Both the position numbers and the translations under genes were made by a program. Shown here piece after piece: positions 1-19,748 of a stretch of 45,590 nucleotides of DNA. The stretch comes from Campylobacterales bacterium (GTDB lineage Bacteria; Campylobacterota; Campylobacteria; Campylobacterales; Nitratiruptoraceae): positions 1-45,590 of the forward strand of contig JALVTF010000024.1 of NCBI GenBank assembly GCA_027024145.1. Direction: 5' to 3'. The notes beneath the pieces are model-generated. The model was given only the letters and a program-made list of their open reading frames with translations. It did no database searches and had not been told where the DNA came from. Within the stretch, counting starts at the first letter, position 1, and each line of letters starts with the position of its first letter.

Positions 1-88
1 GTTTGAAATCGAAATTGCTCAGATACGTGCCGTTGAAGTGCAGTGCGAGAAGCTGTTTTTCAAGAAGTGAAAACCCTTGCGTGTTCAT
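1..88 (-). CDS. Partial unknown protein, N-terminal 29 codons
   Basis: An open frame starts at ATG 88-86 on the minus strand and runs off the left edge of the window. The ATG overlaps the TGA stop of the repeat-protein gene (85-87) in an ATGA arrangement typical of translationally coupled genes. The visible protein begins MNTQGFSLLEKQ and continues without a stop to base 1. Too little is present to assign a family. The call rests on the overlap and the open frame alone. Confidence 0.55.
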   Translation of the reverse strand, partial: MNTQGFSLLEKQLLALHFNGTYLSNFDFK

Positions 89-651
89 GCACTTTTTCCT
101 AAGCGAATCTCTGCAGCTTTGCTGACATCTTTGTCGAGGTCTTGGGCGAGTTTTTGGAGCGTCTCGCGCGGTGTGGCTGGATTTTCCGCAACGCGCAGGC
201 GTACCAGCTTGTCCGGATCTTTGGCAAGTTTGTCCAAAAGCTCGCCAGGTGCATTGGGATTGCCGCTGATGCCGTCGCGGACTATCTTTTCATCATCGAA
301 AAGTGTGTAAAGACACTCTTGTGGTGTATTGGGATTGGTGGCGACGAGGGCGCGCACGAGATTGACCTCGTCATGGGCGAGCTTGGCAAGGATGTGGCTG
401 GGAGTATGGGGATTTTTGGCTACGGCCCAGCGGCTGCCCATATCGGGAACGTCGCTGAGTGCTACGAGGAGTTCGGTCATGACGGGGCTCTTGCCTTTTT
501 CTCGGTCATAGACGCTGGTGCGAAGGCTCAGGTTCATCGCGACCTTGCCCACTACTTCCATGTCGTTGCGAAAAGCTTCGAAAATCTCTTTGACTTTTTG
601 TAGCTCCAGATTTTTCTTTTCCAAAAGGGCCAGCGCTTGCTCTTTTTGCAT
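85..651 (-). CDS. Leucine-rich-variant (LRV/HEAT-like) repeat protein
   Basis: Predicted 188-residue soluble protein. The N-terminal third is a charged helical region. From about residue 75 onward come four tandem repeats of about 25 residues, each with a core of the form xxVAxNPxTPxxxLxxLAxD. This resembles leucine-rich-variant repeats, first described in nif-linked proteins of Azotobacter. The Cys-rich Fe-S segment found in some LRV proteins is absent. Such repeats usually bind proteins; no partner is visible. ATG at 651 is preferred over an in-frame TTG at 657 because an AAAGGA ribosome site lies 6 bases upstream of the ATG. The gene is coupled through ATGA to a second gene at the left edge. 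Confidence 0.75.
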   Translation of the reverse strand: MQKEQALALLEKKNLELQKVKEIFEAFRNDMEVVGKVAMNLSLRTSVYDREKGKSPVMTELLVALSDVPDMGSRWAVAKNPHTPSHILAKLAHDEVNLVRALVATNPNTPQECLYTLFDDEKIVRDGISGNPNAPGELLDKLAKDPDKLVRLRVAENPATPRETLQKLAQDLDKDVSKAAEIRLGKSA

Positions 652-2461: not shown

Positions 2462-2463
2462 TA

Positions 2464-3636: not shown

Positions 3637-3648
3637 AAAGGAGCCAAG

Positions 3649-4014: not shown

Positions 4015-4048
4015 TATTTCACACAGTACATTTAGAAAAGGAGAAGGA

Positions 4049-4507: not shown

Positions 4508-4570
4508 TGCCCCTCACACCGAAACACAAAGTGAAAAACATATATTAAATAGAAAATACGAGAAGGAGAG

Positions 4571-4882
4571 ATGATGAAAAAAATCAGAATGAGATTTCGC
4601 GCGAAAGCTAAAGGTGATATCGTTAAAGTTATCGGTCTTATCAAACACCCAAACTTGACATATATCATGGCGAAAAAACAGCACAAAGAAGTGAATTTCC
4701 TTACATATATCAAAGCGACACACAACGGTGAAGTGGTCTATGAAGCCTCTACAAGCCAATTCCTTTCTAAAGACCCTGTTTTGAAATTCGCATTCAAAGG
4801 TGGTAAAAAAGGTGACGTGGTAGAAGTCTATGTACGCGACCTCAAAGGAAACGAAGGAACGAAAAAGGTCAAAATCAAGTAA
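4571..4882 (+). CDS. soxZ: SoxZ, partner of the SoxY sulfur carrier
   Basis: Predicted 103-residue protein with the immunoglobulin-like fold and length of SoxZ, and no signal peptide. SoxZ is thought to be exported bound to SoxY through SoxY's Tat signal. Two adjacent ATG codons (4571 and 4574) are possible; the second has the better spacing from AGGAG. The ending KVKIK and the segment on oxygen/sulfane exchange surfaces match the family in general form. It sits between soxY and soxA. Confidence 0.93.
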   Translation: MMKKIRMRFRAKAKGDIVKVIGLIKHPNLTYIMAKKQHKEVNFLTYIKATHNGEVVYEASTSQFLSKDPVLKFAFKGGKKGDVVEVYVRDLKGNEGTKKVKIK

Positions 4883-4909
4883 GGTGCCCCTTTCATTGAA
4901 GGAGAAATA

Positions 4910-5815: not shown

Positions 5816-5824
5816 GAGTAGGGC

Positions 5825-6271
5825 ATGAAAAAAACAAAATTTTTAACAATTGCGGCATGCATGGCGTTGGCGTTTGGCGCCAGTGCTGTTGCAGGCGACA
5901 AGACAGATGCTATCCTCAAAGAGGCTATGAAAGTCGATGTGGCGAAAACCTGTGACCCGCAAAAAAACAGTGTCACGAAGCTTCTTGCCGTCGCAAAAAA
6001 ATACAACCCTACCGCTGTCAAATTGGGAGTGGAGTTCAAACGCCTTGGGATGACGACAACGCAATATATCCAAGAAACCCAAAAGGCGCTCAAAGCCAAG
6101 AGTAAAACAGTGACGCTCCTTGATAAAAACGGCAAACCGACAGACAAGAAAGTCTCCGTCGATTACGCTGCCGAGAGAGCGTGCAAATTCGCAGTGCGTG
6201 CTCTGCAAGAATATGTAGATGCACAGACGACATACAAGTTAGCGATTCCCGGTGAGGGCTATAAATATTAA
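5825..6271 (+). CDS. Secreted protein of unknown function between soxA and soxB
   Basis: Predicted 148-residue protein with a clear Sec signal (residues 1-23, cleaving after SAVAG). The mature part is helical and basic, with exactly two cysteines outside the signal (43 and 120) that could form a disulfide. No cofactor motif is present. Its position, 9 bp after soxA and 12 bp before soxB, makes it a Sox accessory protein. One idea is an analogue of the small SoxAX-binding proteins (SoxK/SAXB) of other sulfur oxidisers; no sequence motif here proves that. Confidence 0.85.
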   Translation: MKKTKFLTIAACMALAFGASAVAGDKTDAILKEAMKVDVAKTCDPQKNSVTKLLAVAKKYNPTAVKLGVEFKRLGMTTTQYIQETQKALKAKSKTVTLLDKNGKPTDKKVSVDYAAERACKFAVRALQEYVDAQTTYKLAIPGEGYKY

Positions 6272-6283
6272 GGAGGCTAACGC

Positions 6284-8056
6284 ATGATGATTACAAGAAG
6301 AGAGTTTATGTATATGATGGCAGTACTGGGTGCGACGCCAGTATTTGCCAACTCCCACACACGTTTCGCCCTTTCGGGTAAGTATAAAATCGAAGACTAC
6401 TACAAGCTCGATAATTTCGGTAATGTACGTATCTTGCACATGACCGACTCCCATGCGCAGCTGTTGCCTGTGTACTACCGCGAGCCAAGTGCGAACTTGG
6501 GTCTGCACTCAAACTGGGGAAAACCACCGCATATCGTCGGTGAAAACTTCCTCAAATACTACCACATCCACAACAAACGTTTGGCCTATGCCCTCACCTG
6601 CGTCAACTTCGATGACTATGCCAACTCTTTCGGACGAATGGGTGGTTATGCACACATCAAGACCGTCGTCGATTATCTGCGTAATAATTTCGGCAAAGAA
6701 AAGACGCTCCTGCTTGATGGCGGTGACACTTGGCAAGGAAGCTGGACAGCACTCAAAACGCGCGGTAAAGATATGGTAGGTGCCCAAAACGTCCTGGGTG
6801 TGGACGTACTCACGGGACACTGGGAATTTACCTATACCGAACCTGAAATCAAAGAGAACATCAAAAACTTCAAGGGCGAATTCGTCGCGCAAAACGTCTT
6901 CGTCAAAGATGACGCGCTCCTTAACGGTGCTGAAGCCTACGACGAAGATACGGGACGCGAATTCAAACCCTACACCATCAAAAAACTCGGCGATGCCACA
7001 GTGGCCATAATCGGTCAGGCATTTCCATACACTACCATCGCGAACCCCGCACGTTTCATTCCTGACTGGACTTTCGGTATCAAAGACCAAGAGATGCAAC
7101 AGCTCGTCGACCATGTCCGCAATAAAGAGAAAGTCGATGTGGTCATCGTACTGAGCCACAACGGTTTCGATGTGGACAAAAAGATGGCATCTCGCGTCAG
7201 CGGTATCGACTTCATCATGGGTGGTCACACCCACGACGGTGTGCCTGAAGCGGTGCCTGTCAAAAACAGAGGCGGCGTAACGTATGTGACCAATGCCGGA
7301 AGTAACGGAAAATTCATCAACGTTCTCGACCTTGAAGTCAAAAACGGTAAAATCCGTGATTTCAAATTCACACTCTTGCCGATCTTTAGTGATCTCATCC
7401 CTGCAGACAAAGAGATGCAGGCCTATATCGACAAAGTGCGCAAACCATACGAAAAAGAGCTTACACGCGTCATCGCGACGACAGACGAGACACTCTATCG
7501 CCGCGGTAACTTCAACGGAAGCTGGGACCAGCTCATCTGTGATGCACTGCGTGAAGTCAACGGTGCGCAAATTTCACTGAGCCCTGGATTTCGCTGGGGA
7601 ACGAGCATCATCCCAGGACAAGAGGTGACATTCGAAGATCTCGCTACGCAAACGGCGATGACTTATCCTGAAACTTATGTCAAAGAGATCACGGGCGAGG
7701 CACTCAAAAACATCCTCGAAGATGTGGCAGACAACCTCTTCAACGCCGACCCATACTATCAACAAGGTGGCGACATGGTGCGCACAGGCGGTATCAGCTA
7801 CCGCATCGATCCGAACAAAACGATCGGCAAACGCATCAGCGACATCACACTCTATAACGGTGAAAAAGTCGAACCGCACAAAAAATACAAAGTCAGTGGT
7901 TGGGCGACTGTGAAGAAAAAATCACCTGGCAAACCGGTGTGGGAAATCGTGGAAGAGTACCTTACAAACCTCAAACACATCAAGCACGTCAAAGTGGATA
8001 CTCCAGAAGTCGTCGGCGTAGACGGCAACCCCGGTATCACCAAGTGCAAGAGCTAA
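6284..8056 (+). CDS. soxB: SoxB, thiosulfohydrolase
   Basis: Predicted 590-residue periplasmic dimanganese hydrolase of the 5'-nucleotidase-like metallophosphatase family. It releases sulfate from the SoxY-bound sulfone group. The signal is Tat-like (TRREFMYM). Metal-site motifs are present in order: MTDSHAQ near residue 55, LDGGDTWQGS, GVDVLTGHWEFTY and MGGHTHDG. The C-terminal nucleotidase domain is complete. ATG 6284 follows AAGGAGG. It is the last sox gene, followed by a stem-loop at 8064-8084. Confidence 0.96.
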   Translation: MMITRREFMYMMAVLGATPVFANSHTRFALSGKYKIEDYYKLDNFGNVRILHMTDSHAQLLPVYYREPSANLGLHSNWGKPPHIVGENFLKYYHIHNKRLAYALTCVNFDDYANSFGRMGGYAHIKTVVDYLRNNFGKEKTLLLDGGDTWQGSWTALKTRGKDMVGAQNVLGVDVLTGHWEFTYTEPEIKENIKNFKGEFVAQNVFVKDDALLNGAEAYDEDTGREFKPYTIKKLGDATVAIIGQAFPYTTIANPARFIPDWTFGIKDQEMQQLVDHVRNKEKVDVVIVLSHNGFDVDKKMASRVSGIDFIMGGHTHDGVPEAVPVKNRGGVTYVTNAGSNGKFINVLDLEVKNGKIRDFKFTLLPIFSDLIPADKEMQAYIDKVRKPYEKELTRVIATTDETLYRRGNFNGSWDQLICDALREVNGAQISLSPGFRWGTSIIPGQEVTFEDLATQTAMTYPETYVKEITGEALKNILEDVADNLFNADPYYQQGGDMVRTGGISYRIDPNKTIGKRISDITLYNGEKVEPHKKYKVSGWATVKKKSPGKPVWEIVEEYLTNLKHIKHVKVDTPEVVGVDGNPGITKCKS

Positions 8057-8063
8057 GAGTCTA

Positions 8064-8084
8064 TTCGGAGCCTTTCGCTCCGAA
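8064..8084 (+). terminator. Stem-loop after soxB
   Basis: An 8-bp perfect stem (TTCGGAGC with GCTCCGAA) encloses a 5-base loop, 7 bp after the soxB stop. There is no run of T after it, so it may slow or stabilise the transcript rather than act as a classic intrinsic terminator. It closely resembles the stem-loop after nirS at 35689. Confidence 0.5.
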
Positions 8085-8142
8085 GCTCCCGCAACCATCT
8101 GCAGCACTCTATATACCCAATGCATAAAAGGGAACCGATACG

Positions 8143-8574
8143 ATGAAAGTCCTCGACGTGTTTGTCGCACCCGCTGAATCAAAAAGCAAAATCAGACAAA
8201 AACGTGACGCTATCCATCTCGTGCAAGACTACGGCGTCGAAGATGATAAATTCGCTGGCAAAGAGCTCGATAGAAGCGTCCTGATAACGCCTCATGTGGC
8301 ATACGAGATAGTCCGGGATGCCGGTATCGAACTCGAGTATGGGAGTTTGGGCGAAAACATCATAGTCGATTTCGATATCATGCAATTGCCGGTGGGGACG
8401 AAACTGCGTATCGGAGATACCGAGCTCGAGATAACCCAAAAGTGTACACTCTGCTCACACCTTGCATATTTTGGAAAGCAAGTTCCAAAACTCGTCAAGG
8501 ATCACCGAGGCGTTTACTGTAAAGTGCTAAAGAGTGGAACGATTACGAAAGGAATGGATGTTGGAGTTTGCTAA
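8143..8574 (+). CDS. MOSC-domain protein
   Basis: Predicted 143-residue cytoplasmic protein resembling stand-alone MOSC domains (molybdenum cofactor sulfurase C-terminal). It has the family-type segments DKFAGKELDRSVL, YGSLGENI and GTKLRIGDTELEITQKC. Three cysteines, in KCTLCSH and GVYCKVL, include the probable conserved MOSC cysteine. MOSC proteins are linked to molybdenum cofactor and to sulfur transfer, so a position between a Mo-containing SoxC operon and a second molybdoenzyme is suggestive. Its own role is unproven. The 3' end overlaps the next gene by 17 bp. Confidence 0.8.
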   Translation: MKVLDVFVAPAESKSKIRQKRDAIHLVQDYGVEDDKFAGKELDRSVLITPHVAYEIVRDAGIELEYGSLGENIIVDFDIMQLPVGTKLRIGDTELEITQKCTLCSHLAYFGKQVPKLVKDHRGVYCKVLKSGTITKGMDVGVC

Positions 8575-8995
8575 ACTTGAGCCGATAGAGGATCTGCGTG
8601 GATTTATCAAAGAGCATTTCGATGTGGATCTGCCTGTACGTGGCGGATGGGGCTATGATGCTGCCACACCTGTAGAAATAGTGGATGATACCAAACTTCC
8701 CAAAAAGCAGTTGCAGCATATTTTCGCTACGATTCGCGCCAATATCGAGATGCATCTGATGCAAGAGAAGGGGAAAGGCTACAGCGGCATCAACGTCAAA
8801 GAGATAGGGCGCACCCAAGAAGAAGACTGCGAGGCGGTGGAGTATGAAATCACCGCACTGCCAGAAAAGCTCTACGAAAAGTTCATCAATGAATATAAAG
8901 CCGGCTATGGCAAAGAGGATTTCGATATGGAGGAGCACTTTCGTAGAAGAAAAGAGCATACCGTTTCGCGAAAGGTGAAAATCTATTTCAAATAG
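8558..8995 (+). CDS. Conserved-looking hypothetical protein, coupled to the MOSC gene
   Basis: Predicted 145-residue soluble protein with no signal peptide or membrane segment. I do not recognise the family. It starts MLEFAKLEPIED; ATG 8558 is preferred over GTG 8534 because AAAGGA lies just upstream. It overlaps the MOSC gene by 17 bp, implying translational coupling, and is followed 16 bp later by a secreted DsrE-like gene. The middle part is rich in charged helices, and it has one cysteine. Confidence 0.75.
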   Translation: MLEFAKLEPIEDLRGFIKEHFDVDLPVRGGWGYDAATPVEIVDDTKLPKKQLQHIFATIRANIEMHLMQEKGKGYSGINVKEIGRTQEEDCEAVEYEITALPEKLYEKFINEYKAGYGKEDFDMEEHFRRRKEHTVSRKVKIYFK

Positions 8996-9011
8996 TCTCA
9001 AAGGATTTGCT

Positions 9012-9449
9012 ATGCGACGCACTTTTATCGTGCTGCTTTTGCCTCTCGTTTTGTTCGCACAGACATTCTATGCCACTCCCAAGCCAAGTTTCGAGCACCC
9101 GCGTAAGTGGCTCATACGCCTCAACACCAAAGACCTGCACACCGTCAATCATACCCTCGGCGCCATTTACAACGTCCTCAAAGCCTATCCCAGCGACGCG
9201 CTGGAAGTCCTCGTGGTAGCGTATGGACCGGGCATTCGTGTTCTGCGCAAAGATTACGACAAACATACCCTCAAACGCATCAAGTCGCTCATGGCTTACG
9301 ATGTGCAGTTCGAGGTGTGCAAAAACACGATGGAGACGATGCACTGGACCAAAAAGGAGTTCATCGACGGTGTGAGCTACGTCCAAACCGGTGTCGCCGA
9401 GGTGATCGAGCGCAAGGCCGCAGGCTGGATAGAAGTGACTCCCTACTGA
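9012..9449 (+). CDS. Secreted DsrE/DsrF-like protein
   Basis: Predicted 145-residue protein with a Sec signal (residues 1-21). The mature part follows the DsrE/F fold pattern: WLIRLNTKD, an amphipathic helix, ALEVLVVAYGPGIRVL, then the helical end with FEVCKNTM, whose Cys sits where many DsrE-like proteins have their conserved cysteine, and a C-terminal GVAEVIERKAAGWIEV. Cytoplasmic DsrE proteins carry sulfur; periplasmic ones like this are common beside sulfur-oxidation genes but poorly understood. It ends the small operon with the MOSC gene. Confidence 0.78.
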   Translation: MRRTFIVLLLPLVLFAQTFYATPKPSFEHPRKWLIRLNTKDLHTVNHTLGAIYNVLKAYPSDALEVLVVAYGPGIRVLRKDYDKHTLKRIKSLMAYDVQFEVCKNTMETMHWTKKEFIDGVSYVQTGVAEVIERKAAGWIEVTPY

Positions 9450-9528: not shown

Positions 9529-9588
9529 ATGCTATTTTCGCTCTGTCTGGATGCTTTAAGAATGCTTTAATGGCGATGGATTTATAAT
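9529..9588 (+). promoter_or_regulatory. Rhodanese-operon promoter with 11-bp-spaced direct repeats
   Basis: TATAAT at 9583-9588 is the likely -10. Two direct repeats, ATGCTTTAAGA (9551-9561) and ATGCTTTAATG (9562-9572), sit back to back with an 11-bp period and end exactly 10 bp before the -10. A third copy, ATGCTATTTT, starts at 9529, two periods further up. No -35 hexamer is seen. This is the geometry used by OmpR/PhoB-type response regulators, whose direct repeats replace the -35. Confidence 0.6.
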
Positions 9589-9655
9589 GGCTAATAGCCC
9601 GAAAAATCCGTACTTACGGCATAAGAGCAGATGAATATAGTTATAAGGAGAAGCA

Positions 9656-10780
9656 ATGAAGAGGTTGCTGCAGGCCCTCGTGATCATGGCTTTGGCTGCA
9701 GGCGGTGCCATGGCAGAAAAACTGACCATCAGTGCCCAGGAAGCCTACAAGCTCATAGGCAAACCGGGTGTGGTGTTTGTAGACGGCGATAGTGAAACGG
9801 CATACGAAAACGGCCACATCGTAGGATCGGTGGATATGTATGCGCACCACCTGCACCGCTCCGACATCATGGGACGCATGCGCTGCGCTCCACTGTGGCA
9901 GTGCCCCAAAGAGGCGGCGAAGCTGTTGGGGACGCTGGGCATCGACAACGATACCACTGTCATCGCATACGACAACTGGCGCGGCCCGAACGCCACAGGT
10001 GTGCTGGCCTTTTTGAAAAGCTACGGACATAAGAAGGTTTACCTGCTCGATGGCGGTATCGATGCGATCAAAGCGCTCGACCCCAATCAGAAAAAATATG
10101 ACGAGCTCAAAAAGCAAAAGCACAAACTCCATCGTGCATACCGAAAGGCCAAAAAAGCGGGCGATATGAAAAAATATAAAGAGTTAAGAGCCCAATATAA
10201 AAAAGTAAAAGAGCAGATGAAGGCGCTCGAGCCCAAACTCATTATCCGCAGAGGCATGCAAAAAGTAGCGTTGGGCGAAGGACATTTTGCTTACATTCCA
10301 CCTGCCAAAGAGGCAAAAATCACCCCCAAAACCTATACAATTGATCCAAAACAGATCGATTATAGCTGGATAGCGGGCAAGGATGAGGTCTACAAAGCTG
10401 TGCTTGATCGCCTCAAAAAGGGTGACAAGTCCAAATATGTCATCATCGACGCACGCAGCATGATCGAAATCATCGGACAGCGCAAGATGGATCACGTAGC
10501 GCGCGGCGGGCATATCCCCACAGCGAAGTTTATCGAGTGGAAACGCATCACCGATTTTAAACGCCATAGAAGCTTTCGCACCAAAGAGGAGCTCGAAAAA
10601 CTCTTCAAAAGCTTTGGTATCACGAAAGACAAGACCATCTATGCCTACTGTCAGGTGGGTACGGGACGTGGATCGGATATTGTCACGGCACTGAGACTTC
10701 TTGGCTATCCCAACGCAAAGGTCTATACCGGCAGCTGGGATGAGTGGGGCAACGCTATGAATCTACCTATTAGACGATAA
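9656..10780 (+). CDS. Secreted tandem-rhodanese sulfurtransferase
   Basis: Predicted 374-residue periplasmic protein with a Sec signal to about residue 20. It has two rhodanese domains. In the first (about 22-125) the catalytic Cys position is occupied by Asp106 in VIAYDNWRG, so this half is probably inactive. The second (about 235-370) has Cys332 in the loop CQVGTGRG, a normal active-site arrangement. Between them lies a very Lys-rich, probably coiled-coil linker (about 130-200) that is longer than in ordinary two-domain rhodaneses. It lies 12 bp before the molybdoenzyme alpha gene behind its own promoter, suggesting it delivers or receives sulfane sulfur for that enzyme. Substrate not determinable. 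Confidence 0.88.
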   Translation: MKRLLQALVIMALAAGGAMAEKLTISAQEAYKLIGKPGVVFVDGDSETAYENGHIVGSVDMYAHHLHRSDIMGRMRCAPLWQCPKEAAKLLGTLGIDNDTTVIAYDNWRGPNATGVLAFLKSYGHKKVYLLDGGIDAIKALDPNQKKYDELKKQKHKLHRAYRKAKKAGDMKKYKELRAQYKKVKEQMKALEPKLIIRRGMQKVALGEGHFAYIPPAKEAKITPKTYTIDPKQIDYSWIAGKDEVYKAVLDRLKKGDKSKYVIIDARSMIEIIGQRKMDHVARGGHIPTAKFIEWKRITDFKRHRSFRTKEELEKLFKSFGITKDKTIYAYCQVGTGRGSDIVTALRLLGYPNAKVYTGSWDEWGNAMNLPIRR

Positions 10781-10792
10781 GGAGCGAGCTGT

Positions 10793-13699
10793 ATGAGCAC
10801 TCTTGATACGAAACGACGCAACTTTCTCAAAATTTCAGGTGCGACTGCTGCTTTGGTGGCCGGCAGCGGCAATCTCTTCGCCAAAACGGATGTGATCAAA
10901 GTAGAAAACGGCAAGGAAAACTACCCCAATACCACTTATACCGAACAGATGTATCGCAACGAATTTAGCTTTACGTACGGCAAAAAAGAGGAGCACGGCT
11001 ACGCCTACCACTGCGTCAACTGCCAGGGAAACTGTGCATGGGAAGTGTGGGGCAATAACGGTGTGGTAACGCGCGAAAACCAAAGCGCTCGCTATCCGCG
11101 CATCAATCCAAAAATCCCCGATTTCAACCCGCGTGGCTGCAATAAGGGTATCCAGCATTCACAGGTGATGTATGAAAAGGATCGCATCCTCTATCCCATG
11201 AAGCGCGTGGGCAAACGGGGCGAGGGCAAATGGAAGCGTATCAGCTGGGACGAAGCGGCCGAGATCGTGGCTCAAAAGATATTCGATACCATGACCGATC
11301 CCAAAAAGGGACCGGGACGCATCATGGTCCATGCAGGGACGGGGCTTTTAACTGAAGGACGCCGCGGTTCGGTGCTGCGCTTTTCGACACAGCTGGGAGC
11401 CTATCGTATCTATCCAGCTTCATACTTAGGCGATATGTTTACAGGAAGTGCCGTAGCATACGGTGAAGGTAACATCGGCTGTACCTATGATTTCCTCTAT
11501 ACCGTCGATACAGCTGTCTTTTGGGGCGGTAATCCCAACGTTTCGCGCATTCCCGATGCACATTTTGTCTGGGAGGGCAAGTACAACGGTGCTAAAGTTA
11601 TCGTCATTACTCCTGAATTCAACGGCTCGGCCAAGTCCGCCGATCTTTGGATCCCCATCAAGCCGGGCACAGACCAGTTTTTGGCTATGAGCGTAATGTA
11701 TGAGATCCTTAAGAACAAATGGTACAAACCGGGATTTATGAAGATCTATACGGACCTGCCGTTTCTCGTGCGCACGGACAATAAAAAGCTGCTGCGCAGA
11801 AGCGATATGCAAGAGCCCAAAAACGAAGAAGAAAAAGAGAAATTCGAAGCGCAGTTCTATGCTTGGGACAAAAAGTCCAACAAACCCGTTTTGATGCCAG
11901 GATGCGAAGGAAGCGAGGATAAATCGCTTGATATTCGTGAGCTCGGTATCGACCCCGCTTTGGAAGGGACATGGGAAGTGACACTTGAAGATGGCAAGAA
12001 GGTCAAAGTGACCACCGTCTTTGAGATCTTCAAGAAAAACGTCGAGCAGTTTCCACCCGAAAAGACCCAAGAAATCACCGGTGTGCACCCCGACACCGTC
12101 AAACAGCTCGCAAAAGATATCGCACTCCCAAAAGTGGTGGAGATCACCACGGGCTTTAGCCTGAACAAATATCACAACGGTATCCTCAATGTCTGGAATA
12201 TCGCATCTATTTGCGGTTTGACAGGGCGTCTGGGACCATACGGTTCGCTCAATACAGAAAACGAATTTAGCCTCAGTGGTCTTGGTGCACTCAGTGGTTT
12301 TGGAGGTAAATACAAGCCGCGCTTTGGCTCGGGATTTGTGGGTGAGTTTGTTTTTGGTGATGGGCTCAAAACCTTCGAGAAATATTTCGGCGAAGAAGAT
12401 GTCAAACGAGCTACCGATGGTAAAATCAGCAAAGAGGAGTATATCAAGATCGTCGAAGAAGCCCTCAAAAACGGTGAAGATGGCAAAGATAGGACCGAAG
12501 AGGAGGAGTTTTATAAGCCTTGGTGGACGCCGGAAGTGGCCATCATCGTGGCCGACTCGAAATTTCGCCGCAACAAAGGGAGCGAATATCGTAAAGCCTT
12601 TTTGAAAAAAACCAAGTTTTTCTGCTACGTGGACTATCGTATGAGTGAAGCGGCGATGTTTGCAGATCTGCTGCTGCCGGCAAAATCGCACTATGAAGTC
12701 TACGATATCCGCACGAGCCCGGGCTATCACAGATTTACCAACCTCGCGCAGCCTATCGCAAATATGAAGCCTGTGGGCGAAGCGAAAGATGAGTGGAGTA
12801 TGTTCGCCTTCATCGCCAAGAAGCTCGAAGAGATTGCCAATAGACCTGAGAACAAGAAAAAAGCGAAAGTCCCAGATAGCAAGAAGTATGCACGTACAGG
12901 CTATCGCGATTTGACGAAGTTTTACAAAGAGTACACCAACACCGATGAAGAGTCCGAAGCTGCGATGGAGCCGCTTTTGGGCACGGATAAGCTGGCGGTG
13001 GAAGCGGCACTGCAAAAGTGCGAGCAGTATCAGCCTTGGACTATGGAGAAGATGTATGCAGCCGGAGGATTTTTGGAACTCAACGAAAAAGCCGCCAAGA
13101 TGAGTCCTCTCTATGCGGACAAACCCTATAGCTCAGGGGAGTTTACGCTTTTCAAATTCGAGCGCTTCGAAACATTGAGCGGGCGTCAGACGTTTTATGT
13201 GGATCATCCTATCTATCTCAAACTTGTCAACGGCACCAACTACGCCCTCAAGCCTTTGGCGCCTCAAAGCAAGAAAAATCCGTTTATGCTCATGACGCCG
13301 CATGCACGCTGGTCTATCCACTCCAACTGGAAGACAAGCCGTACGCTCCAGCGATTGCAGCGTGGTGTGCCCTATGTGGCTATCAACCGCAAAATCGCCC
13401 AGCTCAAGGGCATCAAAGATGGCGATACCGTGCGCATCTTCAACGAGCTCGGCGAATTTTATGCCATGGCGAAGGTGAGCTCTTCTGTGGCACCCGATAC
13501 GCTGGTGATGGAGCATGGATGGGAGCCGTATCAGTATCTTTTCAATAAAGGCCACAACGAGTGCGTACCGATGTCGCTCAACCTTCTCGAGCTTGCTGAT
13601 GGTTGGGGGCATCTGAAGTTCGGCGGACAGTGGGACGGTAACCAGTACGCCTATGATGGTGCGGTCAATATCGAAAAATCCACCAAGTATACATACTAA
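10793..13699 (+). CDS. Type II DMSO-reductase-family molybdoenzyme, catalytic alpha subunit
   Basis: Predicted 968-residue periplasmic enzyme with a Tat signal (KRRNFLKIS). The N-terminal Fe-S ligands are His73, Cys77, Cys81 and Cys116, with the H-x3-C-x3-C-x34-C spacing of NarG and other type II enzymes. Asp214 in SYLGDMFTG is the probable Mo ligand. The region RIPDAHFVWEGKYNGAKVIV matches type II dehydrogenases and reductases such as those for selenate, chlorate, dimethyl sulfide and ethylbenzene. The substrate cannot be read from the sequence. The sulfur-rich surroundings (sox, rhodanese, DsrE-like) favour a sulfur compound, but that is inference. Gene order alpha, beta, gamma follows. Confidence 0.88.
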   Translation: MSTLDTKRRNFLKISGATAALVAGSGNLFAKTDVIKVENGKENYPNTTYTEQMYRNEFSFTYGKKEEHGYAYHCVNCQGNCAWEVWGNNGVVTRENQSARYPRINPKIPDFNPRGCNKGIQHSQVMYEKDRILYPMKRVGKRGEGKWKRISWDEAAEIVAQKIFDTMTDPKKGPGRIMVHAGTGLLTEGRRGSVLRFSTQLGAYRIYPASYLGDMFTGSAVAYGEGNIGCTYDFLYTVDTAVFWGGNPNVSRIPDAHFVWEGKYNGAKVIVITPEFNGSAKSADLWIPIKPGTDQFLAMSVMYEILKNKWYKPGFMKIYTDLPFLVRTDNKKLLRRSDMQEPKNEEEKEKFEAQFYAWDKKSNKPVLMPGCEGSEDKSLDIRELGIDPALEGTWEVTLEDGKKVKVTTVFEIFKKNVEQFPPEKTQEITGVHPDTVKQLAKDIALPKVVEITTGFSLNKYHNGILNVWNIASICGLTGRLGPYGSLNTENEFSLSGLGALSGFGGKYKPRFGSGFVGEFVFGDGLKTFEKYFGEEDVKRATDGKISKEEYIKIVEEALKNGEDGKDRTEEEEFYKPWWTPEVAIIVADSKFRRNKGSEYRKAFLKKTKFFCYVDYRMSEAAMFADLLLPAKSHYEVYDIRTSPGYHRFTNLAQPIANMKPVGEAKDEWSMFAFIAKKLEEIANRPENKKKAKVPDSKKYARTGYRDLTKFYKEYTNTDEESEAAMEPLLGTDKLAVEAALQKCEQYQPWTMEKMYAAGGFLELNEKAAKMSPLYADKPYSSGEFTLFKFERFETLSGRQTFYVDHPIYLKLVNGTNYALKPLAPQSKKNPFMLMTPHARWSIHSNWKTSRTLQRLQRGVPYVAINRKIAQLKGIKDGDTVRIFNELGEFYAMAKVSSSVAPDTLVMEHGWEPYQYLFNKGHNECVPMSLNLLELADGWGHLKFGGQWDGNQYAYDGAVNIEKSTKYTY

Positions 13700-13711
13700 G
13701 AGGAGCGGGGA

Positions 13712-14839
13712 ATGTCTCAAAGACAATTAGCGATGGTGATGGATCTGAATAAATGTATCGGATGCCAAACCTGTACGGTCGCATGTAAGACGCAATGGAC
13801 CAACAGAAACGGTCGCGAATATATGTACTGGAACAACGTAGAGACCTATCCGGGAGACGGCTATCCTAAAAAATGGATGGAGCTTGGCGGGGGATTCGAT
13901 CAAAACGGCGATCTGCAGCCTGGTATCATCCCCAATATCGAAGCCGATTATGGTGTGCCTTGGGACTACAACTACGACTCTTTGGCACACCAAAATCTCA
14001 TCGACGGCAAACCGGAAGCCGGATGGCGTCCCGAAACCAGTCCTACATGGGGTCCTAACTGGGATGAAGATGAGGGAGCGGGTGAGTTTCCAAATGACAA
14101 CTACTTTTTCTATTTGCCGCGTATTTGTAACCACTGCTCCAATCCCGGCTGCCTGAGCGCCTGCCCGCGTGATGCGATCTTCAAGCGTGAAGAAGATGGC
14201 GTAGTGCTTGTCGATCTCGATCGCTGCCAGGGATATCGCTACTGCATCGCAGGATGCCCCTATAAAAAGATCTATTTCAACCCAAAAATCAGCAAAAGTG
14301 AAAAATGTATCCTCTGCTTTCCGCGCATCGAACAAGGACTGCCACCGGCCTGTGCCCAAAGCTGCGTGGGACGCATCCGCTTCGTGGGATTTTTGGATGA
14401 TGAAGAGGGGCAGGTCTACAAACTCGTACACAAGTACAAAGTGGCGCTGCCTTTGCGCCCAGACTATGGCACCCAGCCCAACGTCTACTACATCCCGCCA
14501 GTCGATACCCCACCGAAATTCGACGAAAACGGCCGCATCATCGAAGGGAGCGAGCGCGTGCCTATCGAGGAGCTCGAAAAGCTCTTCGGACCCGCGGTGC
14601 ATGACGCTATCAAAACCATCAAAGAAGAGCGTGAAAAACGTAAAAAAACCGGCAAATCGGAGCTCATGGATATCCTCATAGCCTATCAGCACAAAGATAT
14701 GTTCAGACTCGATCATAACTACTACGCCCAAGTGGCCAAACGAAAGGGTATGAAACCACTGCCATTGGTGGATGAGCGCTACGTGGCGGGGAAATATACC
14801 AAAGCTGATGCGATAACTTCTTTTAAGGTGCAGGCATGA
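13712..14839 (+). CDS. Type II molybdoenzyme Fe-S beta subunit
   Basis: Predicted 375-residue electron-transfer subunit with four Fe-S clusters: Cys15/18/21/25; Cys139/142/147/151; Cys172/178/182 with Tyr175 in place of a Cys; and Cys199/202/214/218. The missing Cys marks a [3Fe-4S] cluster, as in NarH, where the position is Trp. There is no signal peptide; the protein would be carried across the membrane with the Tat-tagged alpha subunit. GAGGAGCGGGG precedes ATG 13712. The 3' end overlaps the gamma gene by 4 bp. Confidence 0.92.
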   Translation: MSQRQLAMVMDLNKCIGCQTCTVACKTQWTNRNGREYMYWNNVETYPGDGYPKKWMELGGGFDQNGDLQPGIIPNIEADYGVPWDYNYDSLAHQNLIDGKPEAGWRPETSPTWGPNWDEDEGAGEFPNDNYFFYLPRICNHCSNPGCLSACPRDAIFKREEDGVVLVDLDRCQGYRYCIAGCPYKKIYFNPKISKSEKCILCFPRIEQGLPPACAQSCVGRIRFVGFLDDEEGQVYKLVHKYKVALPLRPDYGTQPNVYYIPPVDTPPKFDENGRIIEGSERVPIEELEKLFGPAVHDAIKTIKEEREKRKKTGKSELMDILIAYQHKDMFRLDHNYYAQVAKRKGMKPLPLVDERYVAGKYTKADAITSFKVQA

Positions 14840-16044
14840 AACGAGTAGCGACGATGACACTCTCTTTGGGAGTTTTGTGTGCAGCCTATGGAGCGAATGT
14901 AGTCAAAGCCGTCAAAGTGCGCAGCCTCCATGGATTGCGATGCGGTGCCTATCTGGTGCGCAAGTACGCGCACTTTACACCCGTGGTGCTCTATCCCCAA
15001 ACCACACTGCATCTCAATGACAAAAAGGCCAATGAGCTCAACAAAGATGCCAAAGCGATCGTGGCGAAAGTGGCGGCTTTCACCGACGGCAAAAAGGTTG
15101 CGATCATCGTGCACTGGCCCGATCGCAGCAAAGATATCTACAAAGGCTACAAGAGCGATAGCTATCCCGATGGCTTCGCGGTGCAGTTTGCTGCAAATGC
15201 TACAAATCCTCAAAAACTCCCCTATATCGGAATGGGTAGCGATGGTAGAGCGGTGGAGATCTTCTTGCGTAAAGCCTACGGCCAGAGCGTGTATGAGCCT
15301 AACGGCAACGGCGACGTGGCGCATCAGGTCAATCCACACAATACCGACTATTTCGGCAAAGAGCTCAAAAAGTTCGAAAAAGAGGTGCAAAAACTGGGTG
15401 TACGCCCCTATGCGAGAGCCTTCGTGAGTGAAGGATTTCGCTCTATGACCGAGATCAAGGACGGTTCGGTCACATGGCGCTCCGATATGTGCTACAACAC
15501 CAAACGCCACATCTGGGGCGGCATGGTGATTAAGCCCATCGACGATGCGTACAGCAAGGCGGCCAAAAACGAGCTTGCCATCGCGGTGGCGGTCTGGGAC
15601 GGCAAGGAGCTACAGCGCGATGGCCTCAAGCGGCTTTCAAGCTGGATCGCCGTGAAATTGCCGCACGCCAAAAACAGAGCCCTCGAGAAGGTGGTGAGCG
15701 AAAAGGTACGTGGCGACGTGGCAGAGGGCAAGAAACAGTTCGCGGCCAACTGCGCCAGCTGTCATAACGATAAAGACTTCCATAACGCCCCCATCTACAT
15801 GGCGCCCGATCTCAGCAACGTGGGAGGCCAGGCGACGGCGGCATATCTGCGCGAATCGATCCTCGATCCCAATGCCGTAGTGGTACCAGGCTACAATCGC
15901 AACCAGCATCCAAGCTATGCATGGTACAATCTCAAAAACGGCAAACGAGTCTCTATCATGCCATCTTTTAGCTATCTCGATGCGAAGGTGGTGAATGATA
16001 TCGTAGCCTATTTGCAGACCCAAAAAGCGGAGGTGGCGAAATGA
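14836..16044 (+). CDS. Gamma subunit: heme-b domain fused to cytochrome c
   Basis: Predicted 402-residue periplasmic protein with a Sec signal to about residue 19. Residues about 25-285 resemble the heme-b-binding gamma subunit of type II enzymes (ethylbenzene-dehydrogenase-type domain), including DGFAVQFA and PYIGMGS, whose Met is a candidate axial ligand. A class I cytochrome c domain is fused at the C-terminus with CASCH at 306-310 and Met375. Characterised gamma subunits normally lack this domain and pass electrons to a separate cytochrome. The fusion implies direct exchange with the soluble cytochrome pool. Confidence 0.85.
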   Translation: MKRVATMTLSLGVLCAAYGANVVKAVKVRSLHGLRCGAYLVRKYAHFTPVVLYPQTTLHLNDKKANELNKDAKAIVAKVAAFTDGKKVAIIVHWPDRSKDIYKGYKSDSYPDGFAVQFAANATNPQKLPYIGMGSDGRAVEIFLRKAYGQSVYEPNGNGDVAHQVNPHNTDYFGKELKKFEKEVQKLGVRPYARAFVSEGFRSMTEIKDGSVTWRSDMCYNTKRHIWGGMVIKPIDDAYSKAAKNELAIAVAVWDGKELQRDGLKRLSSWIAVKLPHAKNRALEKVVSEKVRGDVAEGKKQFAANCASCHNDKDFHNAPIYMAPDLSNVGGQATAAYLRESILDPNAVVVPGYNRNQHPSYAWYNLKNGKRVSIMPSFSYLDAKVVNDIVAYLQTQKAEVAK

Positions 16045-16442
16045 AAAAAGTGGCCCTTTTGGCACTGCTTGGTGCCGGTATGCTCTTTGCCGGCACTCCA
16101 TTTGAAAAGAAGGGGTTTTTGACCACTAAATGGTGTGCCGAGCATGATCTTTTTGCCGATTGTCGGCTCGAGTCCTACCACTGCGGCAGCGGCGGATGCT
16201 TTCGCGATTGGCTGCCGGGAGAGCCTGAAAAGATGCAGCTGGTGCTTTATGTGCACGACGAGGGTAAAATCTACTCCATCAAACCTGCAGGCGTGCGTGT
16301 GAGCGACCTTTTGGAAAAAGCGGCCAATCGTAACGAAGTGACTATCATCGGTTCGCTCGAAAGCGATGGCAAAACGATCGATGCCAAAAAGTTCAAAGCG
16401 CCCCCTCCGCCAAAAAAGTCCTTCTTCAAAGGCTGCCTCTAA
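16041..16442 (+). CDS. Secreted Cys-rich protein of unknown function
   Basis: Predicted 133-residue protein with a Sec signal (cleavage near residue 18). The mature N-terminus has four cysteines (32, 41, 48, 53) in a compact Gly-rich cluster, and a fifth Cys is next to last (132), after a Pro/Lys-rich tail. There is no CxxCH heme site. It overlaps the gamma gene by 4 bp and the chaperone gene by 1 bp, so it is a dedicated component of this operon. It may be an extra small subunit or a periplasmic maturation factor. Family not recognised. Confidence 0.8.
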   Translation: MKKVALLALLGAGMLFAGTPFEKKGFLTTKWCAEHDLFADCRLESYHCGSGGCFRDWLPGEPEKMQLVLYVHDEGKIYSIKPAGVRVSDLLEKAANRNEVTIIGSLESDGKTIDAKKFKAPPPPKKSFFKGCL

Positions 16443-17059
16443 TGGCGGCGAAGCGGCCGTCGGACAAGCATGGGAGAGGAGCGTGCGTGGATAACAAAGC
16501 ACGAGCCTTTGTCTATGCCTTTTTGTCGCGTCTTTTCGAAAAGGAGTTAGGGACCAAAGAGATAGAAGAACTGCGCAAAAATAGAGACCTCCTCGCTACC
16601 ATCGGAGAAGCGAGCCGAGAATATTTCGCCGCTACCGACACCGCCACGCTCCAAGAAGCGCTCAATATCGATTACCACTCCCTCTTTTCAGTAAACTCTC
16701 AGCCCATCAAGTCTATCGTCGTGGATGCTACGGGCGAGATATTGGTGGGATTGCAAAATCCCGTGATGTATTTCTATTTCGAAAACGGCTACGAAATCGA
16801 TATGAACCGCACCGAGATTTTGGCTCCTGATCATCTGGCCATCGAATTTGGATTTATGCAAAATCTCGCCTTTCGCGACGAGAAGCGTACGGCGCTGCGC
16901 TTTTTGCGTGAGCATCTTTTGGCATGGGTGCCGCCATACCTTTGTGCAATCCAAGAGATGGCGCAAACTCCCTTCTATCGGGATGTGTGCGATTTTACCA
17001 TCGAATATCTCTTTCGTGATTTTGCCCTTTTGCAAGAGGTCGGAGACGATGCAGTATAA
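16442..17059 (+). CDS. TorD/DmsD-family molybdoenzyme chaperone
   Basis: Predicted 205-residue all-helical cytoplasmic protein of the TorD family, with no signal. It has the typical regions LSRLFEKEL, the acidic centre around NRTEILAPDHLAIEFGFM and a C-terminal helix bundle. Such chaperones bind the Tat signal of the alpha subunit and hold it for cofactor insertion; the equivalent genes in selenate and chlorate reductase operons are often called delta. ATG 16442 overlaps the previous stop. Overlap with the following ferredoxin gene is 11 bp. Confidence 0.85.
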   Translation: MAAKRPSDKHGRGACVDNKARAFVYAFLSRLFEKELGTKEIEELRKNRDLLATIGEASREYFAATDTATLQEALNIDYHSLFSVNSQPIKSIVVDATGEILVGLQNPVMYFYFENGYEIDMNRTEILAPDHLAIEFGFMQNLAFRDEKRTALRFLREHLLAWVPPYLCAIQEMAQTPFYRDVCDFTIEYLFRDFALLQEVGDDAV

Positions 17060-18080
17060 ACAGCGAAGCGAGCTTTTTAGCTATGACGCTTTGCGCTGCT
17101 TGCGTAACGACTATTTCCACAACGACTGCCAAGAGTGCAAAGATATCTGTCCCGAAAATGCCTGGTATTTCGAGCGAGGGCAGCTGCGTATCGATCCTGG
17201 GCGCTGCACCAACTGCTCCGTGTGCCTGGGCGTCTGCCCCGCGGAGGCTTTGGGATTGGAGTTTTTCGATCCCAACGAGTACGCAATGCGCTGCAGTGAA
17301 GTGCTATCGTGCAAAAAGGATCTGCCTTGCCTGAGCGCTTTTGCCAGCGAGCACTTCGTAGCGATGGCGCTGAAGCGAGGCGGTATCGGTGTGGATCTCT
17401 CCCACTGTGCACAGTGTACGCTCAATAAGGATGGTAAAGTTTTGGCTTCGATCCAGGAGCGTCTCGAAGAAGCGAGGGCCTTCTTGCGAGCGCTCGGCCT
17501 CGAGGCGCAGATCGAAGAGCGTGCCTACCGTAACGACCGCCGCAGTTTTTTCAAAACGCTCTTTAACGCCGCCAAAACGATGGATAGTGCATCGATGCAG
17601 TTGCCACCGGCTCCGGACCGTTTGCCTATACGGCGTAATCTTTTGCAGCAACTTCTCAAACCGCTCAGTAAGGATCTGAGCGCTTCGCATATTCCAACCT
17701 CCTTTTCCTTCATAGCGAACAAGCAAATCGATGCAGCGTGCACCAATTGTGGTGATTGCGTGCAGTTTTGCCCAACGCAAGCGCTCTCGTATTCTCCCGA
17801 TGGTGCGGCTATCTCTTTTGTAGCCGGCTATTGTATCGATTGTGCTATCTGCAACGATATTTGCAAAGTAGATGCCATTACAGATACACAGACGGTCGAC
17901 ATCGTGGCGTGGGCTTTCGCAAGAGCTCGAGAGCTCATCCGTCATCGCATAGAAGTTTGCCAAGAGTGCAACACCCCTTTTGCCTATAAAGGCGGTGAGA
18001 TGGTGTGCGATCGCTGCAAGCAGTTCGTCGATGCGTTTGGCGATATCTTCAAACTCGCCAGCGACATGGAGGAGTCATAG
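17049..18080 (+). CDS. Multi-cluster ferredoxin-type protein
   Basis: Predicted 343-residue cytoplasmic Fe-S protein. Its clusters appear in order: CQECKDIC and CTNCSVCLGVC at residues 27-63, a middle region with scattered Cys (CAQC), then CTNCGDCVQFC and CIDCAICNDIC, and a zinc-ribbon-like end CQEC...CDRC. The start is ATG 17049, 11 bp inside the chaperone gene, not the longer upstream frame. It resembles NapF-type ferredoxins that assist maturation of exported molybdoenzymes. It closes the operon and is followed by a new promoter. Confidence 0.82.
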   Translation: MQYKQRSELFSYDALRCLRNDYFHNDCQECKDICPENAWYFERGQLRIDPGRCTNCSVCLGVCPAEALGLEFFDPNEYAMRCSEVLSCKKDLPCLSAFASEHFVAMALKRGGIGVDLSHCAQCTLNKDGKVLASIQERLEEARAFLRALGLEAQIEERAYRNDRRSFFKTLFNAAKTMDSASMQLPPAPDRLPIRRNLLQQLLKPLSKDLSASHIPTSFSFIANKQIDAACTNCGDCVQFCPTQALSYSPDGAAISFVAGYCIDCAICNDICKVDAITDTQTVDIVAWAFARARELIRHRIEVCQECNTPFAYKGGEMVCDRCKQFVDAFGDIFKLASDMEES

Positions 18081-18155: not shown

Positions 18156-18503
18156 ATGAGTCTTATACCCCAAGATGCACAAAGAGTGGACGTCCCGGGA
18201 GCGACGGTGGATTTTTACAAATTCGAGCGTGATGGCGTCACTTACTACGCTTTCGATACGTCACGTTGTGGGCCGCCTGAGCCGATGGTCAACGCCATGG
18301 CGGGACTGCGCTTGGTCAAAGACCCCAATACCAAGCTCATCATGATCAACCACAAAATGCCCATGGGGCTTTTGAACAAAATCGAAGAGAATTACGATAT
18401 CGAAACGGAAAATCTTCCCGATGGACGCGTCAAGCTCGTCTTTAGCTATAAGCCCGGTGCCAGTGAAAAGGCAAATCTGAGCGATACGGCCTGCCACGGT
18501 TAA
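18156..18503 (+). CDS. Small protein of unknown function
   Basis: Predicted 115-residue cytoplasmic protein, without signal or membrane segment, beginning MSLIPQDAQR and ending DTACHG. Two cysteines are visible, in TSRCGPPEPM and near the C-terminal end. GGGAGGAGG precedes the ATG. It is first behind a strong promoter carrying Fnr/Fur-like boxes, and the oxidase-like membrane gene starts 15 bp after it. The CGPPEPMVNAM segment is distinctive, but I cannot place it in a family. Confidence 0.78.
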   Translation: MSLIPQDAQRVDVPGATVDFYKFERDGVTYYAFDTSRCGPPEPMVNAMAGLRLVKDPNTKLIMINHKMPMGLLNKIEENYDIETENLPDGRVKLVFSYKPGASEKANLSDTACHG

Positions 18504-18518
18504 GCGAAGGAGGGGAGG

Positions 18519-19748
18519 GTGTTTCATGTCTCCAAGGAGTTCGCTCCACCGTTAGGGCTTATCGTGCCCTTTTTCATCAGCGGTGTGTTCTTTTATGTGC
18601 TCAGTTGCATCGCACTGCTTTTTTACACGCCCCACTTTTCGCATCTGGAGCTTTCGGTGGCGGGATGGGTGCATCTATTTATGGTGGGGTACGTGATGAT
18701 GATCATTTTCGGTGCCATGGCGCAGTTGGTGCCCGTGGTATTGGAGACCGGGCACTTTAGCGTCGATTGGTACTACATCATCTTTCCGGTGCTGCTCATC
18801 GGCGTCATCGGCCTCATAGCCGGCTTTTGGCTCGACCCGATACTGCTGAGTTTCGGGGGGCTTTTGGTCCTGGTAGCGATGGTGATTTTCGCAGTGGATG
18901 TGTTTCTCACTATCGCCAAGACCCAGCTTGCCACCCCCACCGTCAAAGCTATCAAGCTCTCCAATATCTTCTTGCTATTGGGGATTCTCAGTGGTTTTGC
19001 CATGGCGTTGGCGCTGAGCGGCTTTTGGAGCGTGGATATCGAAGATTTTGTGCATGCCCATGTCTGGGCTGTCGTGGGAGGCTATGTGTTGATGTCGGTG
19101 TATGGCATCACGTTGGTGCTTTTGCCCATGTTCGGTCTGGCGCACGGCTTTAGCGAAGCGCCGATTCGAAGAGCCATCCCCACCCTTGCGGCTGCGGTGT
19201 CGCTGGTGTATGTGGGTGCTCTTTTTGGTTGGCGTTTTGTGGAGGGATTGGGGATTTTTGCCGGATTTGTGAGTGTCGCTTTCTATGCGCAGCAAATCTC
19301 TCTCATCTACAAAACCCGCGTGCGCAAAGAGCTCGATATCTGGTATCGCTCCATGCTCTTTGGCTACGCATCTTTTGCGGTGGCTGTGGCGGTAGGAGCT
19401 TTGGGAGTGCTTTTTGGTGCGCAGCAGGTGATCTATGCAGCCATCTGGGCGCTTTTTATGTTCTTTGCATTTTTGATCAATGGACACTTATATAAGATTA
19501 TTCCTTTTTTGGTCTGGTTTCACCGCTTCAGTGATTTAGTTGGCAAACAGCGCGTGCCGATGCTGCATGAGATGTATCCCAAAAAGCAGGCACTATACCA
19601 GTTTTGGATGAGTGCCGTGGGCGCGGCGCTGGTATTTTTGGGATTGCTTTTTCATAGCGATGCGCTTTTCAAGGCAGGTGGCAGCTTCATGCTCGTCGGT
19701 GCCATCTTTTTGGCCACCAGTGTAATGTGGATGATACGATATAGATAG
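18519..19748 (+). CDS. Heme-copper-oxidase-like polytopic membrane protein
   Basis: Predicted 409-residue integral membrane protein with about 11-12 hydrophobic helices. Histidines lie at the ends of helices in VHLFMVGYVMMIIFGAMAQLVP, HAHVWAVVGGYV and NGHLYKIIPFLVWFHRF. The pattern resembles non-catalytic relatives of oxidase subunit I or of NorB. The WHAHEM motif of NnrS is absent, so I do not call it nnrS. The start is GTG 18519 behind AAGGAGGGG; the nearby ATG is out of frame. The role may be heme, copper or NO handling. Confidence 0.7.
   Translation: MFHVSKEFAPPLGLIVPFFISGVFFYVLSCIALLFYTPHFSHLELSVAGWVHLFMVGYVMMIIFGAMAQLVPVVLETGHFSVDWYYIIFPVLLIGVIGLIAGFWLDPILLSFGGLLVLVAMVIFAVDVFLTIAKTQLATPTVKAIKLSNIFLLLGILSGFAMALALSGFWSVDIEDFVHAHVWAVVGGYVLMSVYGITLVLLPMFGLAHGFSEAPIRRAIPTLAAAVSLVYVGALFGWRFVEGLGIFAGFVSVAFYAQQISLIYKTRVRKELDIWYRSMLFGYASFAVAVAVGALGVLFGAQQVIYAAIWALFMFFAFLINGHLYKIIPFLVWFHRFSDLVGKQRVPMLHEMYPKKQALYQFWMSAVGAALVFLGLLFHSDALFKAGGSFMLVGAIFLATSVMWMIRYR

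Follow-up and report, generated by a model that had tools for sequence, protein, structure and literature searches.

What does a molybdoenzyme act on when it is encoded together with a secreted rhodanese and a small cysteine-rich secreted protein? This question is raised by a seven-gene operon in a stretch of 45,590 nucleotides (the window), which is contig 24 of a 1.53 Mb Campylobacterales genome that is 92% complete and whose nearest named kin carry either the name Nitratiruptor or just an order- or phylum-level label. An initial annotation of the window had described the genes as one tight operon for a type II molybdoenzyme and had proposed a sulfur substrate. We find that the operon recurs in Campylobacterales far beyond chance, and that its small secreted protein, for which we coin the name CysS, ends in an invariant cysteine tail. 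The gene set, its co-occurrence, the subunit types, the conserved ligand positions and this tail were all computed from the DNA. We propose, with a probability of about 0.42, that the operon encodes a periplasmic molybdenum complex for carrier-bound sulfane sulfur, in which the rhodanese would load Cys132 of CysS and the alpha subunit would redox-convert the sulfur held there.

The operon occupies positions 9656-18080 of the forward strand, and its seven tightly spaced genes are separated by gaps of at most 12 bases or overlap by 1 to 11 bases. The earlier description stands as to the seven genes and their families, and its start at 9529 is about 130 bp too early. The features are as follows (aa, amino acids):

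9656..10780, + strand: secreted tandem rhodanese, 374 aa (PF00581 in two stretches)
10793..13699, + strand: alpha catalytic subunit, 968 aa, type II-like molybdopterin oxidoreductase (TIGR03479, below the cut-off)
13712..14839, + strand: beta iron-sulfur subunit, 375 aa, with 15 invariant cysteines (TIGR03478)
14836..16044, + strand: gamma subunit, 402 aa, EB_dh heme-b domain plus c-type cytochrome (PF09459, PF00034)
16041..16442, + strand: CysS, small secreted protein, 133 aa, tail FFKGCL (predicted model)
16422..16442, + strand: DNA for the tail FFKGCL and the stop (sole match in the window, 0 in 100 shuffles)
16442..17059, + strand: TorD/NarJ-like chaperone (PF02613, 31.5 bits; NF003442 TorD, 58.1 bits, below the cut-off of 132)
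17049..18080, + strand: polyferredoxin with extra CxxC pairs (Fer4 families; 24 cysteines in 61 of 61 distinct orthologs)

The polyferredoxin probably opens at the ATG at 17049; the listed open reading frame opens with TTG at 16848, and our searches used a start at 17043. Export signals of the operon proteins were judged by eye, and none was seen on the polyferredoxin.

To see how far these genes stay together, we compared the window with its relatives. The order rhodanese-alpha-beta-gamma-CysS is kept in 20 of 20 relatives, and that of all seven proteins in 13 of them. Among 199 Campylobacterales genomes, 68 carry alpha, 67 the rhodanese and 64 CysS. The co-occurrence of rhodanese and enzyme across genomes, on which the initial annotation had staked its reading, was borne out: 66 genomes have both, and the three with only one are breaks at contig ends. 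Alpha occurs without the rhodanese in G022, where the contig begins inside alpha, and in G038, where a 6228-base contig ends at alpha's truncated 5' end; the rhodanese occurs without alpha in G053, where beta, gamma and CysS start at the edge of another contig. G053 is also the only genome with CysS and no alpha. Five genomes have alpha and no CysS; the contigs of two (G022 and G178) stop before CysS, and the coordinate-matched contigs of the other three (G117, G150 and G183) stop 0.7-2.2 kb past alpha. Rhodanese, alpha and CysS thus travel as one unit, with the mismatches falling at contig ends.

The same picture emerged from 100 individual loci: 80 belong to named genomes (the best 80 of 147 relatives) and 20 to genomes without a name; organisms are partly shared between the two groups, and 95 loci are distinct. 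The rhodanese lies upstream of alpha in 96 of the 100, and the remaining four have at most 235 bases of upstream contig. Of the 100, 84 have CysS, and in each of the other 16 the contig runs no further than 2218 bases past alpha. The chaperone and the ferredoxin are not universal: in eight loci (six distinct), including that of Thiovulum stygium (L049, the same as L098), neither was found near alpha although 8 kb or more of sequence follows it. Record titles among the 80 named loci point largely to sulfur-cycling Campylobacterota genera and include Hydrogenimonas, Sulfurimonas, Sulfuricurvum, Sulfurovum, Sulfurospirillum, Nitratiruptor and Thiovulum. In a draw from the whole phylum, which may have contained this order only, alpha was found in 54 of 397 genomes, all of the same order. 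We also observed loci in which alpha is interrupted by frameshifts or stops (G051, G064, G040, G195 and G171, at L144, L145, L146, L147 and L148), some of them in single-contig genomes, which reflects decay or sequencing error. In G164 (L151, about 10120-10890), a CysS tail and a TorD fragment (residues 159-194, 47%) are left, separated by another gene, an apparent remnant of a lost operon. No description of the operon was found in the open-licence literature searched; most subscription papers lie outside it, so this does not prove that the operon is unpublished.

The strongest mechanistic clue is the tail of CysS. The small Cys-rich protein itself had been noted before, and its invariant C-terminal cysteine had been missed. 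CysS orthologs were gathered with the window protein as the query, and each was translated up to its natural stop: the 84 loci with a match yielded 83 complete proteins, or 84 with that of the window, and dropping six identical copies left 78. All 78 end in FFKGCL (KSFFKGCL in 74, KEFFKGCL in three and ASFFKGCL in one), which makes Cys132 the penultimate residue of the window protein. The majority residue accounts on average for 58.8% at core positions 22-119 versus 99.4% at the last eight positions, and the codons of the tail vary synonymously. As a DNA pattern, FFKGCL followed by a stop occurs in 67 of the 199 genomes, of which 62 have alpha and one, G053, has the rest of the operon; the reversed control matched two genomes. 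The matches in G048, G124 and G156 looked like chance, without similarity to CysS, and were set aside.

The AlphaFold model of CysS (mean pLDDT, the predicted local distance difference test, 83.5) has a confident core at about residues 21-119 and a weak tail, as expected of a swinging arm. CysS had no Pfam or NCBIfam match at E<=0.01, searches against plasmids and solved structures gave nothing significant, and Foldseek returned weak matches only (best E 0.093), several of them OB-fold proteins. Several orthologs look, by eye, like lipoproteins from their N-terminal sequence. SoxY and DsrC likewise carry sulfur on a cysteine close to the tip of a flexible arm; a SoxY-like protein encoded in the window has the C terminus GGCGG. 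In many genera (e.g. L038, L039 and L040) the CysS stop is followed, only a few bases on, by a strong hairpin, perhaps a terminator or an RNA-stability element inside the operon.

One genome outside the set of 78 proteins, G100, has a different tail. Its CysS frame (L149, 11537-11591) reads DFKG-TGA-CTC-TGA, with TGA as the cysteine codon and the final leucine and stop kept, and its alpha is among the most divergent (60%). The TGA is a candidate selenocysteine codon or, alternatively, a candidate truncation. G100 encodes a SelB over the curated cut-off and, by eye, a SelA-like neighbour gene; SelB is also over the cut-off in three of eight other genomes tested, and the window's genome has none over it. 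A hairpin follows the TGA (-18.6 kcal/mol, z -2.61, 3 of 200 shuffles as good). In a control that folded the DNA just after the Cys codon in 88 CysS ends, G100 included, the median was -13.75 kcal/mol with a median z of about -3.1; G100 had a z of -3.03, and six Cys forms fold more strongly. Since Cys forms fold similarly, selenocysteine is kept only as a candidate. An Rfam search at the site gave no match, and no tRNA-Sec was found on the one 3.1 kb G100 contig scanned. A second CysS paralog in G100 (L195, 4020-4848), on a contig without the enzyme operon, has the tail LFKGCL and lies directly behind a weak DsrE match (below the cut-off). The pattern FKG-TGA-(L/F)-stop, found in 81 of 398 genomes, was dropped as evidence, being common by chance.

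Conserved positions stand out in the other proteins of the operon as well. The C domain of the rhodanese has an active-type loop, CQVGTGR, at Cys332, and the corresponding loop of the N domain lacks a cysteine (by eye); Cys77 and Cys83 form an extra conserved pair, all three cysteines are kept in 84 of 84 distinct orthologs, and the closest solved structure is a Thermus rhodanese (1uar). The beta subunit belongs to TIGR03478 (527.7 bits, above the cut-off of 480.7), and its 15 cysteines are invariant in 85 of 85 distinct orthologs. The gamma subunit matches PF09459 (104.1 bits, cut-off 33.3) and the cytochrome c family PF00034, with CxxCH at 306-310, and falls below the cut-off of TIGR03477 (61.8 bits versus 169.85). 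Its Met133, Lys265 and Met375 are invariant in 79 of 79 distinct orthologs; by analogy with ethylbenzene dehydrogenase and cytochrome c, we take Met133 and Lys265 to be candidate heme-b ligands and Met375 a candidate heme-c ligand. The chaperone likewise stays below TIGR03482 (28.3 bits versus 152.3).

The alpha subunit scores 771.7 bits against TIGR03479, below the cut-off of 984.75 (relatives 778 and 718.2). In the same comparison ClrA (1347.5) and two haloarchaeal proteins (1305.8 and 1241.1) pass, and a chlorite-dismutase-linked plasmid protein also stays below (557.5). Its predicted molybdenum ligand is Asp214, and the predicted FS0 ligands His73, Cys77, Cys81 and Cys116 fall in the alignment columns of PcrA, ClrA and NarG, so that alpha has both the Mo-Asp and the His-x3-Cys-x3-Cys-xn-Cys FS0 pattern of the type II family; EbdA has a two-residue insertion at this site in the alignment. 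The twin-arginine signal scores just below its cut-off (PF10518, 20.8 bits versus 22.7). Lys459 aligns with EbdA Lys450, and Pro208 and Ala209 sit where PcrA has its gate residues Phe164 and Tyr165. With the Mo-Asp and the Lys450 equivalent both kept, oxygen-atom chemistry is expected. The AlphaFold model of alpha (mean pLDDT 63.6, below 50 for residues 1-130 and for several active-site stretches) was left unused.

In each of three trees the alpha orthologs group together in a single clade (100/100), and the stem leading to it measures 1.45-1.73 changes per site. ClrA, the closest sampled alpha at about 35% identity, is the sister of this clade (96/91 and 96/92) and EbdA comes next, against PcrA, NarG and the haloarchaeal enzymes; ClrA still stands beside the clade when EbdA is left out, although no other row then remains on that side. 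Long branches drew a warning from the tree program. The trees contain one ClrA row, SerA is covered by proxy through ClrA (83.6% identity, PMC12724226), and DdhA is not among the rows. On this sampling alpha does not branch inside the ClrA/SerA clade, nor inside the sampled chlorate, perchlorate, nitrate or ethylbenzene lineages; this supports the initial annotation, for which a place inside a known selenate, chlorate or hydrocarbon clade would have counted as refutation, with SerA covered by proxy only.

We infer from these features sulfur as the substrate, loading of Cys132 by the rhodanese, docking into alpha and the direction of the reaction; the sulfur flow and the oxidative direction follow the SoxYZ/SoxCD analogy and the oxygen-atom chemistry of the family. 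The proposal also draws on the acceptor profile of Sulfurospirillum arcachonense, described below, and on the largely sulfur-cycling genera among the named loci. Cys332 of the secreted rhodanese would accept a sulfane sulfur atom, with polysulfide, thiosulfate or a persulfide as the donor, and pass it to Cys132, at the tip of the flexible, proline-rich arm of CysS, and this arm would then enter the substrate funnel of alpha. There the Asp-ligated molybdenum would add oxygen atoms to the bound sulfur; oxidation seems most likely, and reduction of a bound sulfur oxyanion would be the mirror case. Electrons would run from FS0 through the iron-sulfur clusters of beta to heme b and heme c of gamma and on to a periplasmic cytochrome c, and TorD and the ferredoxin would serve assembly. 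A bolder form of the proposal, which we regard as doubtful and put forward tentatively, is that CysS forms a class of its own among covalent sulfur carriers, having arisen by convergence with SoxY and DsrC, that the complex is a sulfane dehydrogenase of the dimethyl sulfoxide (DMSO) reductase type and a second Sox-like solution widespread in Campylobacterales, and that at least one lineage has a natural selenocysteine arm.

Several points weigh against a sulfur-carrier complex. The tail of CysS could be an assembly or docking peptide and not a carrier. The fold matches of CysS are weak, and the family and structure searches made gave no similarity to SoxY or DsrC. The TGA of G100 may mark a truncated gene, in which case the tail would be dispensable there, and a Cys-tailed paralog is also present. 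The model of alpha is too poor for a docking test, the nearest sampled relative of alpha is ClrA (96/91), and alpha shows no association with soxB. Rhodanese-domain proteins also accompany a selenite reductase (PMC12481199).

Four other explanations were weighed. In one, the enzyme respires a small oxyanion (selenate, chlorate or similar) with electrons from cytochrome c, and the rhodanese and CysS handle by-products; this would fit the position of alpha as sister to ClrA and the rhodanese-domain proteins of the srr selenite reductase operon (PMC12481199), and we consider it unlikely. Alpha forms a separate long branch and lacks the aromatic gate residues of PcrA, and it is clearly different from the PcrA-type gene with a chlorite-dismutase-like neighbour in G328, of the Sulfurospirillum group (L198, 4406-10165, a PcrA-type perchlorate reductase operon); on its clade, its gate residues and this contrast, identity as a chlorate or perchlorate reductase was judged unlikely. 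Sulfurospirillum offers clues in both directions. Within the G193 genus (inferred to be Sulfurospirillum), the operon's alpha occurs in 12 of 24 genomes, a thirteenth match being a PcrA-type gene. It is frameshifted in G171 and intact in G193, identified by inference as S. multivorans and S. halorespirans, and PMC11406935 scores both species as selenate-positive, together with S. barnesii, and S. deleyianum as negative. In contrast, alpha was not found in the single-contig 2.5 Mb genome G242, inferred to be S. barnesii, so the selenate use of that species probably does not depend on this enzyme; nor was it found in a single-contig 2.3 Mb genome inferred to be S. deleyianum. The whole operon is present in S. 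arcachonense DSM 9755 (L093). For this strain PMC11406935 scores elemental sulfur and microaerobic growth as positive and seven acceptors as negative (nitrate, nitrite, sulfite, thiosulfate, sulfate, arsenate and DMSO), with selenate not determined and chlorate not in the table. The enzyme may have a selenate role elsewhere in Sulfurospirillum.

A different role for the partner proteins, which we find rather unlikely, is that the rhodanese and CysS are assembly factors: as a docking peptide or a thiol relay, the tail would mature or protect the subunits after export, and the substrate of the enzyme would have nothing to do with carrying sulfur. In favour are the strict association of CysS with the enzyme, a weak fold match of CysS to the OB domain of CcmE, a heme chaperone (E 0.16), and a Mrp/NUBPL iron-sulfur carrier gene that is a frequent neighbour. 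However, the molybdenum cofactor and iron-sulfur clusters are inserted in the cytoplasm, whereas the rhodanese and CysS carry export signals (by eye), and a catalytic rhodanese is not otherwise known to take part in the maturation of a type II enzyme. An enzyme of the DdhA/EbdA kind, oxidizing organic sulfides or hydroxylating carbon with the rhodanese as a passenger, is quite improbable: alpha retains a lysine equivalent to EbdA Lys450 and falls on the same side of the trees as EbdA and ClrA, but it scores 328.1 bits against the EbdA equivalog NF042978 (cut-off 2000), and the fixed rhodanese and CysS partners would have no evident role. Least of all do we expect an accessory module of the Sox thiosulfate pathway, which the sox genes next to the operon might suggest and from which the initial annotation had argued for a sulfur substrate. 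That argument is not supported. SoxB is above its cut-off in 61 of the 199 genomes, 20 of the 68 with alpha and 41 of the 131 without (p 0.87), and outside the window's family the figures are 10 of 52 and 41 of 131 (p 0.14). The sox block, moreover, splits genes that are close neighbours in most loci. On these counts and on neighbour conservation, we rejected the sox linkage as functional evidence.

Two further genes of the window, upstream of the operon, are:

88..651, - strand: LRV-repeat protein (in the neighbour clusters; PF01816 on its ortholog)
9012..9449, + strand: DsrE-like protein with a signal-like N terminus (PF02635; neighbour only)

In 62-63 of the 95 distinct loci, the operon is preceded by a divergent Mrp/NUBPL gene, a small protein and the LRV protein. 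The window differs in that the stretch 1076-9449, with the sox, MOSC and DsrE genes, separates the LRV gene from the rhodanese; this arrangement suggests an insertion or rearrangement and makes the linkage to the sox operon local or incidental. The DsrE-like neighbour is not among the neighbour clusters of at least six loci. Of the upstream genes named earlier, SoxB, MOSC and DsrE held up, and the other sox names are readings of the sequence; most sox labels, as well as MoaC, MobA, porin, NnrS, SelA and the chlorite dismutase of G328, were assigned in this way without a family search. Apparent molybdenum-cofactor genes occur downstream, MoaC-like in 34 and MobA-like in 12 of the 95 loci (names by eye). 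After the operon (18156-19748), the window has a 115 aa protein without a family match and then an NnrS-like membrane protein, homologs of which both follow the operon in G064; further downstream (21796-24606), a NapA-like molybdopterin protein is a second molybdoenzyme in the window.

When the operon is set beside known systems, each shares a part of it. ClrABDC of Ideonella dechloratans (and SerABDC by proxy) has the same type II molybdenum alpha, iron-sulfur beta, gamma and TorD-like chaperone, but gamma and cytochrome c are encoded by separate genes there and fused here, a rhodanese is not among the 17 annotated features shown around clr, and a chlorite dismutase lies nearby; a chlorite-dismutase-like protein was not seen by eye among the open reading frames of the window, no model search for it having been made. 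EbdABC (2ivf) shares the Mo-Asp, the Lys450 equivalent and the EB_dh gamma, whereas the operon's alpha is far below the EbdA cut-off; EbdABC is not known to come with a rhodanese or carrier. PcrA (4ydd) resembles alpha over residues 64-950 but falls in a different clade, and its Phe164/Tyr165 gate is replaced. SoxCD with SoxYZ is alike in proposed logic, a molybdenum enzyme acting on sulfur held by a C-terminal cysteine arm, but alpha is of the MopB type and not of the SoxC type, and CysS, which has no family match, ends in FFKGCL and lacks the GGCGG carrier motif of SoxYZ. A further parallel is described in PMC12481199: srrA-F of Bacillus selenitireducens encodes a selenite (molybdenum) reductase with a chaperone, rhodanese-domain proteins and an anchoring subunit, where the operon has a soluble gamma cytochrome and CysS (compared by description, not by sequence). 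The earlier statement that characterised type II enzymes are not encoded with a rhodanese can thus hold only for the enzymes it named.

If the proposal is true, many sulfur-cycling Campylobacterales would hold an overlooked, Sox-independent sulfur-redox enzyme. The enzyme would bear on elemental sulfur processing in strains without a full Sox set; the Sulfuricurvum genomes named in PMC4288042 are without soxCD, and three loci labelled Sulfuricurvum (L079, L082 and L084) carry the operon. Sulfur metabolism would gain a third carrier-arm design, and type II-like molybdenum enzymes a partner of a new type; the finding would also call for caution against labelling such genes as selenate, chlorate or ethylbenzene enzymes in metagenome annotation.

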